A DNA stretch of 64,000 bases from Calothrix sp. NIES-4105 (lineage in GTDB: Bacteria; Cyanobacteriota; Cyanobacteriia; Cyanobacteriales; Nostocaceae): positions 2,235,470-2,299,469 of the forward strand of contig NZ_AP018290.1 in the NCBI RefSeq assembly GCF_002368415.1, in the 5' to 3' direction. A program made the position numbers and the translations under genes. Shown here piece after piece: positions 57,400-59,125 of this stretch. The notes beneath the pieces are model-generated. The model was not told the DNA's origin. It did no database searches and worked only from the letters and a program-made list of their open reading frames with translations. How positions within the stretch are numbered: the stretch's first letter is position 1; every line of letters starts with the position of its first letter.

Positions 57400-57726
57400 A
57401 TGACTTTTACAGAATTAAAATCTCAATTACTCTCGTTAACACCAGCAGAAAAAGCTGAGGTCATTCAAATATTATCGCAAAGTTTGGCTAACACTTGGCA
57501 AGGAATTAACAAAACTCCTGGTGTTATGGGTGGTGACGCTTGTATTAGACAAACTCGTATTCCTGTATGGTTACTAGTGAGTTATCGGCGTTTAGGTTTA
57601 AGTGAAGCCAAAATTTTAGATAATTATCCAACTTTATCAGCTGTTGACTTAGCAAATGCTTGGTCTTATGCTCAGATACACGCTAACGAGATTGAAGCAG
57701 CAATTACAAAGCATAACGAAGCATAA
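57400..57726 (+). CDS. DUF433 antitoxin
   Basis: 108 residues. An N-terminal helical part (LLSLTPAEKAEVIQILSQSL) is followed by the DUF433 winged-helix signature GVMGGDACIRQTRIPVWLLV (about 45-64) and AKILDNYPTLSAVDLANAW. Typical antitoxin of a DUF433/DUF5615 pair. It binds its own promoter and the toxin that starts 3 nt later. Confidence 0.92.
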   Translation: MTFTELKSQLLSLTPAEKAEVIQILSQSLANTWQGINKTPGVMGGDACIRQTRIPVWLLVSYRRLGLSEAKILDNYPTLSAVDLANAWSYAQIHANEIEAAITKHNEA

Positions 57727-57729
57727 TTA

Positions 57730-58062
57730 ATGGCACGTTTATACGCAGACGAGCAGTTTCCAAGGGAAACTGTTCTTATACTCAGGACTTTGGGGCACGA
57801 TGTTCTAACAGTTCAAGAAGCAGGTAAGGCAAACCAAGGTATTCCTGATGACGAAGTTGTTGCATTTGCGGCAAGTATTCAGCGTGCTGTCGTAACACTT
57901 AATAGATATGATTTTATTAAACTGCACGCGAAGCAAGCAGACCATGCTGGCATAATTGTGTGTACTGAAAATCAAGACTTTTCCATGTTAGCGACACGAA
58001 TTAATGAAGCAATTTCTTCTTTTGAATCATTAACAGGACAACTTATTCGAGTATACAAATAG
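57730..58062 (+). CDS. DUF5615 PIN-like toxin
   Basis: 110 residues with the PIN-like acidic residues: ADEQFPRETV (D7), IPDDEVVAFA and VVTLNRYDFIKL. DUF5615 proteins are compact PIN-fold ribonuclease-like toxins paired with DUF433 antitoxins. Complete. It converges on the truncated Ro gene, 25 nt away. Confidence 0.92.
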   Translation: MARLYADEQFPRETVLILRTLGHDVLTVQEAGKANQGIPDDEVVAFAASIQRAVVTLNRYDFIKLHAKQADHAGIIVCTENQDFSMLATRINEAISSFESLTGQLIRVYK

Positions 58063-58087
58063 TTACAATGGATAGAAGTTGATTTCT

Positions 58088-58381
58088 CTAACCTCCATCA
58101 GAAGCATATACAATTTCTGAAGCTACACGTTTTGGATTTTCGGCAATGGCTTTAAATAAGGTATCAACAAAATCATTGGTTAATTCGTGTTTGCCTGCAT
58201 AATAAGTATTTTGTGATGTACCAATTAACAAGCAGCGACGTAATACTTGCCACAAGTCAGCTTTGAACATGTAACCACCAGAACGTCCCTGAATCATTTC
58301 TGCTTCGCGTCTGGGGATTGCTTGAGATTGTGGAGTATTTTGATTTTTATTATTTTGGTTTAGAAAAAATTTATATGTCAT
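58088..58381 (-). pseudogene. Truncated Ro60-like TROVE protein (N-terminal 97 aa)
   Basis: Start at 58381 (MTYKFFLNQ), with GGAGGT 6 nt upstream. Residues 18-97 match the start of the TROVE domain of Ro ribonucleoproteins (SQAIPRREAEMIQGRSGGYM, ADLWQVLRRCLLIGTSQNTY, ASEIVYASDGG). An intact Ro is about 500 residues or more; here a stop follows SDGG and the rest is gone. Ro/Rsr binds misfolded RNAs and Y RNAs. The two tRNA-like RNAs just upstream on the same strand support the identification. A DUF433/DUF5615 pair occupies the truncation side. Confidence 0.8.
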
Positions 58382-58420
58382 TTCTACCTCCGCGACTCCC
58401 GTTAGGGTTATGTAATAAAA

Positions 58421-58544
58421 TTGACAGGACGAGAATTGCACTCGTATATCCAGACGATTAAGGGGGGATTCGTTGGAAAGCGATAACCCTAAGTCTTCGT
58501 CCCGTGAGGGCAAAATTGGCGCTTTACTGTTAAGCTACCTGCCA
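58421..58544 (-). ncRNA. tRNA-like RNA A, candidate Y RNA
   Basis: 124 nt on the minus strand. A 7-bp acceptor-like stem TGGCAGG/CCTGTCA pairs in full with one G-U. Then TA, a D-arm GCTT..AAGC, a T-arm stem ACGAG/CTCGT around a 7-nt loop TGCAATT, and a single unpaired A after the acceptor. In place of a normal anticodon arm is a long insert containing GCCCTCACGGGACGAA and AGGGTTATCG. The 3' end is 40 nt before the Ro fragment start. Bacterial Y RNAs (YrlA type) are known tRNA mimics next to Ro genes; the Y identity is inferred from position and fold. Confidence 0.6.
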
Positions 58545-58575
58545 GTGGTTATATATACATTTAGATGTATATAAG

Positions 58576-58700
58576 GTGGTGGAGCAAGATTTGAACTTGC
58601 GACCTCGCGAACCTAAATCGATAACCCTCATTTATTCGTCCCGTTAGGGCAATAAGTCAAACAAGGATATTACGCGCTCTACCTACTGAGCTACCCGCCA
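58576..58700 (-). ncRNA. tRNA-like RNA B, candidate Y RNA
   Basis: 125 nt on the minus strand, upstream of RNA A. Acceptor-like TGGCGGG/TCCACCA (six of seven pairs), TA, D-arm GCTC..GAGC with AGTAGGTA loop, variable-like AGGTC, and T-arm GCAAG/CTTGC around the canonical loop TTCAAAT. The central insert of about 60 nt carries GCCCTAACGGGACGAA and AGGGTTATCG, shared with RNA A. A tRNA search might report it as an odd or pseudo tRNA; the insert is too short for a group I intron. Confidence 0.6.
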
Positions 58701-59125
58701 CATGATTTTTAGGTTTTTGATTACGGTTGGGGGAGACGGGCGGGTTTACTAGTCTTTGCGTTATGTTGTGGGATGTTTGTTAACCCGCCCTTACTAGTCT
58801 TTGCGTTATGTTGTGGGATGTTTGTTAACCCGCCCTTACTATGTGTTTTTGGTTGGTTCATTGTTTGTTTTCTTTGACTGTGTTGTTTTCTATGAGTCTA
58901 AAGTAAACCCTACTTCTTCCCCTAGGCTAGTTTTATATTTAAAGTGTATAAAGCTTTTGCTGTAAGGATTTAAAACCTAGGGGAAACGGTTTCCTTCAGG
59001 GATTCCCCTAACTTTTGATGTTACACGACTTGGGTTTGCTCAAAATAGTAGAAATAAAAAAAGAGACAGTTCGTGATTATTGTCCCACAAGTGTTATATA
59101 GTTTTCATGGTGTTATTTATGTAAA
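58701..59125. other. Spacer with R1 pieces and a long inverted repeat
   Basis: R1 pieces at about 58736-58836 (CGGGCGGGTTTACTAG, then two GGTTAACCCGCCC-like ends with a repeated 50-nt unit beginning TAGTCTTTGCG). An inverted pair CCCCTAGGCTAGTTTTA and TAAAACCTAGGGG lies at about 58919-58983, followed by GGAAACGGTTTCC. No gene found. Confidence 0.6.

Follow-up and report, generated by a model that had tools for sequence, protein, structure and literature searches.

The window, a stretch of 64,000 nucleotides from Calothrix sp. NIES-4105, carries two tRNA-like RNAs upstream of a shortened rsr gene. Read on the minus strand from 58700 to 58088, the locus consists of RNA1, a 32-nt spacer, RNA2, a 39-nt leader and an open frame of 97 codons, the gene starting 39 nt past the end of RNA2. 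The features are listed below in window coordinates, with the evidence for each. R1 is a covariance model built from 37 class A RNAs; A1 and A2 are alignments of class A and class B RNAs.

58577..58700 (-): RNA1, class A candidate Y RNA in tRNA order, 124 nt (R1, 106.3 bits; alignment A1)
58694-58700 and 58577-58583 (-): acceptor strands of RNA1 (alignment A1)
58676-58691 and 58584-58600 (-): D-arm and T-arm of RNA1 (alignment A1)
58624..58668 (-): inserted hairpin of RNA1 (minimum-energy fold of RNA1; pair counts in relatives)
58658-58668 and 58624-58634 (-): strands of the Ro-type helix of RNA1, with the apical hairpin CCC-UAAC-GGG at 58640-58649
58608..58620 (-): anticodon-like stem-loop CGA-UUUAGGU-UCG of RNA1, triplet UAG (sequence; loop statistics in relatives)
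58421..58544 (-): RNA2, class B candidate Y RNA in tRNA order, 123-124 nt, with the helix strands in the opposite order (Rfam tRNA, 40.8 bits; R1, 46.7 bits; A2 pair counts)
58388..58407 (-): rsr leader, with a CCC-UAAC-GGG hairpin at 58398-58407 and the ribosome binding site GGAGG at 58388-58392 (sequence)
58088..58381 (-): rsr remnant, N-terminus of Rsr, 97 codons and stop (93% identity to the Rsr of L003)
58069..58093 (no strand): apparent deletion junction, about 1.9 kb of Calothrix PCC 7716 sequence absent (blastn against L004)

Two RNAs on one strand upstream of a Ro gene fragment had been predicted from the letters of this DNA, and both were confirmed on the minus strand, at 58700-58577 and at 58544-58422 plus one base. 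The 7-bp acceptor-like stem ascribed to each is present, but that of RNA1 contains a single C-A mismatch, at a place where relative L002 has a standard pair. The insert was thought to replace the anticodon arm. This was incorrect: class A RNAs such as RNA1 keep a 7-nt anticodon-like loop, and the insert lies on the 5' side of the arm. RNA2 matches the Rfam tRNA model with 40.8 bits, above the gathering score of 29, with a 64-nt insert in its anticodon arm; RNA1 is not among the Rfam matches. No tRNA was called by ARAGORN within the window, and no Rfam intron match was found in the window region.

Folding each RNA alone, as had been suggested, returned the inserted hairpin of RNA1 but otherwise gave no support: the folding energies of RNA1 and RNA2 are unremarkable against shuffles (z of 0.39 and -1.48), and RNA2, folded from the single sequence, is not tRNA-like at minimum energy. 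As folding energy alone gives no support, the evidence for the RNAs was taken from relatives. RNA1 is 93-96% and RNA2 89% identical to the counterparts in L002, L003 and L004; the leader is 68-81% identical, and the spacer alignment is too poor to judge (13-14 of 32 bases). The counterparts lie ahead of an intact rsr and score 108.3-109.5 and 44.4-50.8 bits with R1, against 106.3 and 46.7 in the window. This likeness would reflect conservation before the deletion described below, not necessarily afterwards.

The 97 residues had been assigned to the N-terminus of Ro60/Rsr, which was borne out by 93% identity over 96 residues to the N-terminal end of Rsr (536 residues) from Calothrix PCC 7103 (L003), with the refinement that the gene is a deletion remnant. 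On its own, the fragment gives a weak NCBIfam Rsr match (E 3e-4), no TROVE match in Pfam and only weak matches in the PDB (best E 0.13, with Deinococcus Rsr). A complete rsr is absent from the window, 97 codons being left. In a blastn comparison of the window with Calothrix PCC 7716 (L004), the match ends at rsr codon 96 or 97 and is picked up again about 1.9 kb further along L004, at a DUF433-DUF5615 gene pair that lies downstream of rsr there as well. A deletion would be the simplest account of the short rsr.

The DUF433-DUF5615 pair (57400-58062) is convergent with the rsr remnant. We take it to be an antitoxin-toxin-like arrangement. On a Bosea plasmid (L128), TROVE is likewise followed by a DUF433 gene. 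On the other side of the locus, upstream of RNA1, a 45-bp direct repeat is present in two adjacent copies (58746-58841).

A second rsr of this genome (C1:6684632-6691473) has three RNA units upstream and is interrupted near codon 177 by about 5.2 kb with opposite-strand frames for group II intron reverse transcriptases. Within this insertion (L117 2660-7895, G000:C1:6685159-6690394), one reverse transcriptase frame is apparently split by the other. A whole-genome search (E up to 0.001) found no third copy. Since the rsr of the window is a remnant, the sole other rsr is split and no further copy was found, the strain probably makes no intact Rsr. With both copies broken, the window locus is most likely a relic, its RNAs still looking nearly intact.

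Related RNAs upstream of rsr

Matches to R1 lie upstream of rsr in at least 76 of 80 related loci, which places the RNAs beside a Ro60/Rsr gene, as Y RNAs are in the broad sense of the term; in the window, that gene is a remnant. No upstream match was present among the matches listed for L061, L064, L075 and L081; by eye, two of these four loci contain an apparent 3' half of a unit, and in one the upstream sequence is limited to 170 nt. The R1 scan of the loci gave at least 300 matches, ordinary tRNAs included (up to 42.2 bits in L119; 53.6 bits at L021 756-826). A second finder, which applies no pairing criterion, located 173 units in 72 of the 80 loci, with between one and seven at each; some anchors sit in the wrong place, and it missed all units of L002, L003, L004 and L044, where the T-arm letters or the core do not fit.

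The rsr frame is uninterrupted over at least 529 codons in 73 of the 80 related loci, runs off the contig end in three and is interrupted in four. The genes tested from three relatives (L003, L009 and L079) all encode the TROVE and Ro60 vWA domains, and the one relative's Rsr that was compared with the PDB gave Ro60 and Rsr as best matches over nearly its full length. In L016, L017 and L022, from different genera, rsr is interrupted at the same place (codons 253/254-260) by about 0.8 kb. An opposite-strand frame in the L022 insertion resembles an HNH endonuclease by eye; the insertions of L022 and L017 gave no Rfam match, introns included.

The distribution was then surveyed in 194 genomes of the phylum, with 18 candidates scored per genome. 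A specific match was defined as at least 62 bits with R1 over more than 100 nt, a threshold set after ordinary tRNAs had been seen reaching 61 bits. Among the matches listed, such matches occur in at least 19 of the 26 genomes with TROVE and in none of the 168 without (Fisher p 7e-21, from the matches listed), the other seven TROVE genomes having none among those listed. By coordinates, 18 of the 19 lie upstream of TROVE within about 2 kb; the match in G044 is about 3 kb downstream. G109, which has no TROVE match, contains a 164-nt R1 match of 56.7 bits, below the threshold. Such RNAs are also carried by the Firmicutes loci L078 and L079, and three of them precede a full-length TROVE gene on plasmid pAQ7 of the laboratory strain Picosynechococcus PCC 7002. 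Homologues placed beside intact TROVE genes, as the original prediction called for, therefore exist, with full-length rsr neighbours in many cyanobacteria and in two Firmicutes loci, and the lack of a TROVE association elsewhere that would have spoken against it failed to materialise, specific matches being confined to TROVE genomes among the matches listed.

A third type of RNA was noticed just downstream of rsr in several loci (L051 5655-5764, L037 5647-5754, L035 5622-5727 and others). It has a GGCGGG/CCCGCC closing stem, the same Ro-type core and a T-arm; no D-arm is apparent by eye.

In Salmonella, rsr and rtcB form an operon. This arrangement is not general here: RtcB is present in all 22 genomes tested, and by coordinates it lies within 3 kb of TROVE in G041 only, a genome without a specific R1 match among the matches listed.

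Structure and register of the RNAs

Covariation was counted in alignment A1, which holds the window RNA and 36 of 43 dereplicated class A units, and in A2, which holds the window RNA and 15 of 22 class B units. In A1, 96.4% of the cells are paired and 23 of the 30 pairs show changes on both sides, the counts for the acceptor and T stems being biased in both alignments, since the finder behind them favoured pairing in these helices. None of 500 shuffles reaches the observed values, and slid controls pair to at most 53.4%. The compensatory changes that had been sought in homologues are thus present. Most of the signal comes from the acceptor, D and T arms and the apical hairpin; the Ro-type helix shows changes on both sides in three of seven pairs, as it is too conserved to covary much. 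In A2, 88.0% of the cells are paired and 14 of 34 pairs changed on both sides, with 73.7% and two of ten for the Ro helix, and the count of pair types is not above that of shuffles (258 of 500 reach it). The strands of this helix occur in reverse order compared with class A, so that the Ro module itself is permuted in class B. Overall, covariation supports the predicted apical hairpin along with the three tRNA-like arms (acceptor, D and T); its support for the Ro-type helix is weaker. The arms follow the cloverleaf order of tRNA, and a GNRA tetraloop caps the apical hairpin in 92 of 130 class A units.

At a fixed place after GGTTATC, 66 of the 130 distinct class A units form a 3-bp stem with a 7-nt loop; loops of 5, 6, 8 and 9 nt are found there in 2, 6, 3 and 1 units. 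The 66 loops have U33 in 64 cases and a purine at position 37 in 64. Across the 64 loops with U33, 20 triplets occur at positions 34-36, including one that would read a stop codon. In the remaining 64 class A units there is no anticodon-like loop at the fixed place, and only four of 40 class B units have one. The 5-bp anticodon stem and uninterrupted 7-nt loop of tRNA are not formed, as the Ro-type hairpin interrupts them. Thus, from the 5' end, the predicted order of the family is acceptor strand, D-arm, Ro-type hairpin, in many units an anticodon-like stem-loop, T-arm and 3' acceptor strand. Classification of the units by nearest tRNA D-arm gave a mixed, low-resolution picture in which Leu-type units are clearest.

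According to passages of PMC8394870 and PMC11472068, both ends of YrlA lie in the Ro stem, and the RNA can be superposed on tRNA only once it is circularly permuted. With pairing-free anchors, the acceptor stem pairs 7/7 within the unit in 143 of 173 units. Among 48 pairs of neighbours with acceptors differing at three or more positions, 7/7 pairing across units was found in only three, and in two of these (L025 and L052) the anchor of the first unit is evidently misplaced. In this test the pairing-free finder repeated the earlier result without its picking bias. No YrlA match at the gathering score was obtained in the window or in 16 loci, and none over the cut-off in the genome of the window. 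In L051, L045 and L125, matches of 31.0-37.7 bits (cut-off 69) all, four of four, begin halfway through one unit and end halfway through its neighbour, as they should if each form is a circular permutation of the other. In the covariance searches proposed at the outset, RNA2 thus exceeded the tRNA score, and the YrlA matches straddled two units below their cut-off.

The ends of the RNAs were placed in the acceptor stem on the basis of the within-unit pairing, the GNRA tetraloops and the straddling YrlA matches. By this sequence evidence, the ends would lie in the acceptor stem and not in the Ro stem, and the RNAs would have the order of tRNA, as the unpermuted counterpart of YrlA. Bacterial Y RNAs known to mimic tRNA beside rsr had been expected to agree in gene order and fold; the gene order agrees, but the fold is this unpermuted one. 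Tandem arrays offer a simple route between the permuted and unpermuted forms, either direction being possible.

Like YrlA (RF02553; structure 6CU1), the RNAs are encoded beside rsr, contain a tRNA-like module of D-arm, T-arm and acceptor-like stem and, in model alignments, share a Ro-binding-type stem with similar conserved letters. They differ in their predicted ends, which the sequence register and the tetraloops place in the acceptor stem where YrlA ends in the Ro stem, in closing the Ro hairpin with a tetraloop, in often keeping an anticodon-like loop and in scoring below the YrlA cut-off. They share with tRNA (RF00005) the acceptor, D and T arms in order, and some units exceed the tRNA score, but about 50 nt or more are inserted in the anticodon arm. 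The Deinococcus radiodurans system likewise combines Rsr with a Y RNA (RF01053) that has tRNA-like parts; its model gave a single weak match, in L078 (35.4 bits, cut-off 80). In the Rsr-Y RNA-PNPase machine of D. radiodurans, the function of the Y RNA is described as tethering and gating.

Promoter sites and leader hairpins

In many relatives, the array promoter reads TTGACA, 13 nt and ATACTACATT, that is, a -35 box followed 17 nt on by a TACATT-like -10 box within the operator. The layout is the same in Anabaena trcR, where the motif ATACTACACTTGTATTAC contains the -10 box TACACT; TrcR also represses trn and rtcB in that organism (passages of PMC10272220). Exact copies of the TrcR-type 8-mer, ATACTACA or TGTAGTAT, occur in the 1500 nt ahead of rsr at 43 of 72 loci, not all of them promoter-like, against a shuffled mean of 1.8 loci and maximum of six, and 5 of 75 downstream. 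With the -35 box at fixed spacing (TTGAC[AG]-N13-ATACTACA), the pattern is found in 24 of 72 upstream and 0 of 75 downstream regions; a different spacing gave no match in the genome of the window or in the 72 loci. In this genome, a TrcR-type site lies ahead of the second rsr array and of one of two rtcB loci, and none was found ahead of the window array.

These sites resemble those described in passages of PMC10272220 for the Anabaena trn operon, which likewise has tandem tRNA-like genes, a -10 box overlapping a ATACTACA/TGTAGTAT operator and rtcB in the same regulon, but consists of ordinary tRNAs; neither TROVE nor Ro60 occurs in the passages of that source that were searched. The sites suggest that TrcR controls the arrays, which would place them under translation-stress control in many relatives. 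In a cyanobacterial co-culture, transcripts of TROVE and of RtcB increased jointly (PMC11423583), and a TROVE transcript was strongly up after erythromycin (PMC6424891). Both observations fit stress induction.

Just ahead of the ribosome binding site, 58 of 80 rsr leaders contain a GCCY-N3..5-RGGC hairpin that resembles the apical hairpin of the RNAs. The leader hairpins of the window and of L002, L003 and L004 fall outside this pattern. The leader hairpin is a possible site of autoregulation by Rsr.

Readings of the locus

The observed anatomy, covariation, rsr linkage, pairing register, anticodon-like loops and, in relatives, operator-like promoter sites are best explained if RNA1 and RNA2 are members of a family of candidate Rsr-partner Y RNAs in tRNA order, a reading to which we assign a probability of about 0.8. 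We infer from it a scheme of co-transcription, processing, Rsr binding, gating and regulation. The array and rsr would be transcribed together, in many lineages from a promoter blocked by the translation-stress repressor TrcR. The tRNA-shaped ends would let RNase P and the tRNA 3'-end enzymes free each RNA, and the inserted hairpin would be the part that Rsr binds. Outside the ring, the tRNA body could gate or tether Rsr, or serve as a tRNA decoy, and the copy of the apical hairpin in the leader may let Rsr control its own synthesis.

The exactly permuted register in which the Rfam YrlA model aligns in L051, L045 and L125 would be accounted for if the arrays were canonical, circularly permuted YrlA in tandem with the register misread, the true ends lying in the apical hairpin and each RNA running from mid-unit to mid-unit. 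The scores are far below the cut-off, however, the acceptor strands pair within the unit and not across where neighbours differ, GNRA tetraloops close the apical hairpin where the ends should be, and single-unit loci exist, all of which makes this very unlikely. It is likewise very unlikely that the RNAs are cis-acting tRNA-like elements of the rsr mRNA leader rather than free RNAs, a reading suggested by their position ahead of rsr on its own strand and by the copy of the apical hairpin in the leader at 58 of the 80 loci. Arrays of as many as seven units, whose tRNA bodies differ and whose acceptor stems are complete, are more in keeping with processed RNAs, a related RNA is also found downstream of rsr in several loci, and the G044 match is about 3 kb downstream of TROVE.

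Also very unlikely is that these are tRNA genes or pseudogenes with an inserted repeat or intron, and that the proximity to rsr is incidental. This would explain why RNA2, like 17 long units, scores above the Rfam tRNA threshold, why CCA is encoded at the 3' end in 26 of 173 units, and why the Leu-type unit of L059 has 23 of 24 nt on the D-arm side in common with tRNA-Leu(UAG) of the window's genome. It does not explain why the phylum scan gave matches only in TROVE genomes, among the matches listed, nor why a single conserved insert with a covarying hairpin is found across many tRNA bodies, and no intron was matched in the window region. The fear that the homologues might be ordinary tRNAs with inserted repeats was thus not realised.

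The reading as Y RNAs in tRNA order is preferred, and the RNAs are judged to be a new form of bacterial Y RNA, unpermuted, for which priority is not claimed. No description of Y RNAs in tRNA order was met in the titles and abstract openings searched. A 2014 study by Chen is said to have reported Y RNAs near Ro60 in over 250 species, possibly including cyanobacteria, and for this reason no first report is claimed.

Tentatively, and with the odds rather against it, Y RNAs in these bacteria may have originated when a Ro-binding hairpin entered the anticodon arm of several different tRNA genes. The permuted YrlA would then have come from tandem arrays through a shift in register, and the varied anticodon loops would be retained because the RNAs, controlled by TrcR, serve as a set of tRNA decoys or sensors for enzymes that cut anticodons or repair tRNAs when translation is stressed. 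If true, an unpermuted, anticodon-bearing bacterial Y RNA would be a plausible link between tRNA genes and permuted YrlA, the tRNA origin of Y RNAs would be testable by end mapping and phylogeny, and the Ro system would be tied to a translation-stress regulon in cyanobacteria.

As a separate observation, a 15-kb region of the same genome (L119, G000:C1:7436000-7451000) contains a large tRNA gene array like the Anabaena trn operon, with a ATACTACACTTGTAATAC site at L119 10566.
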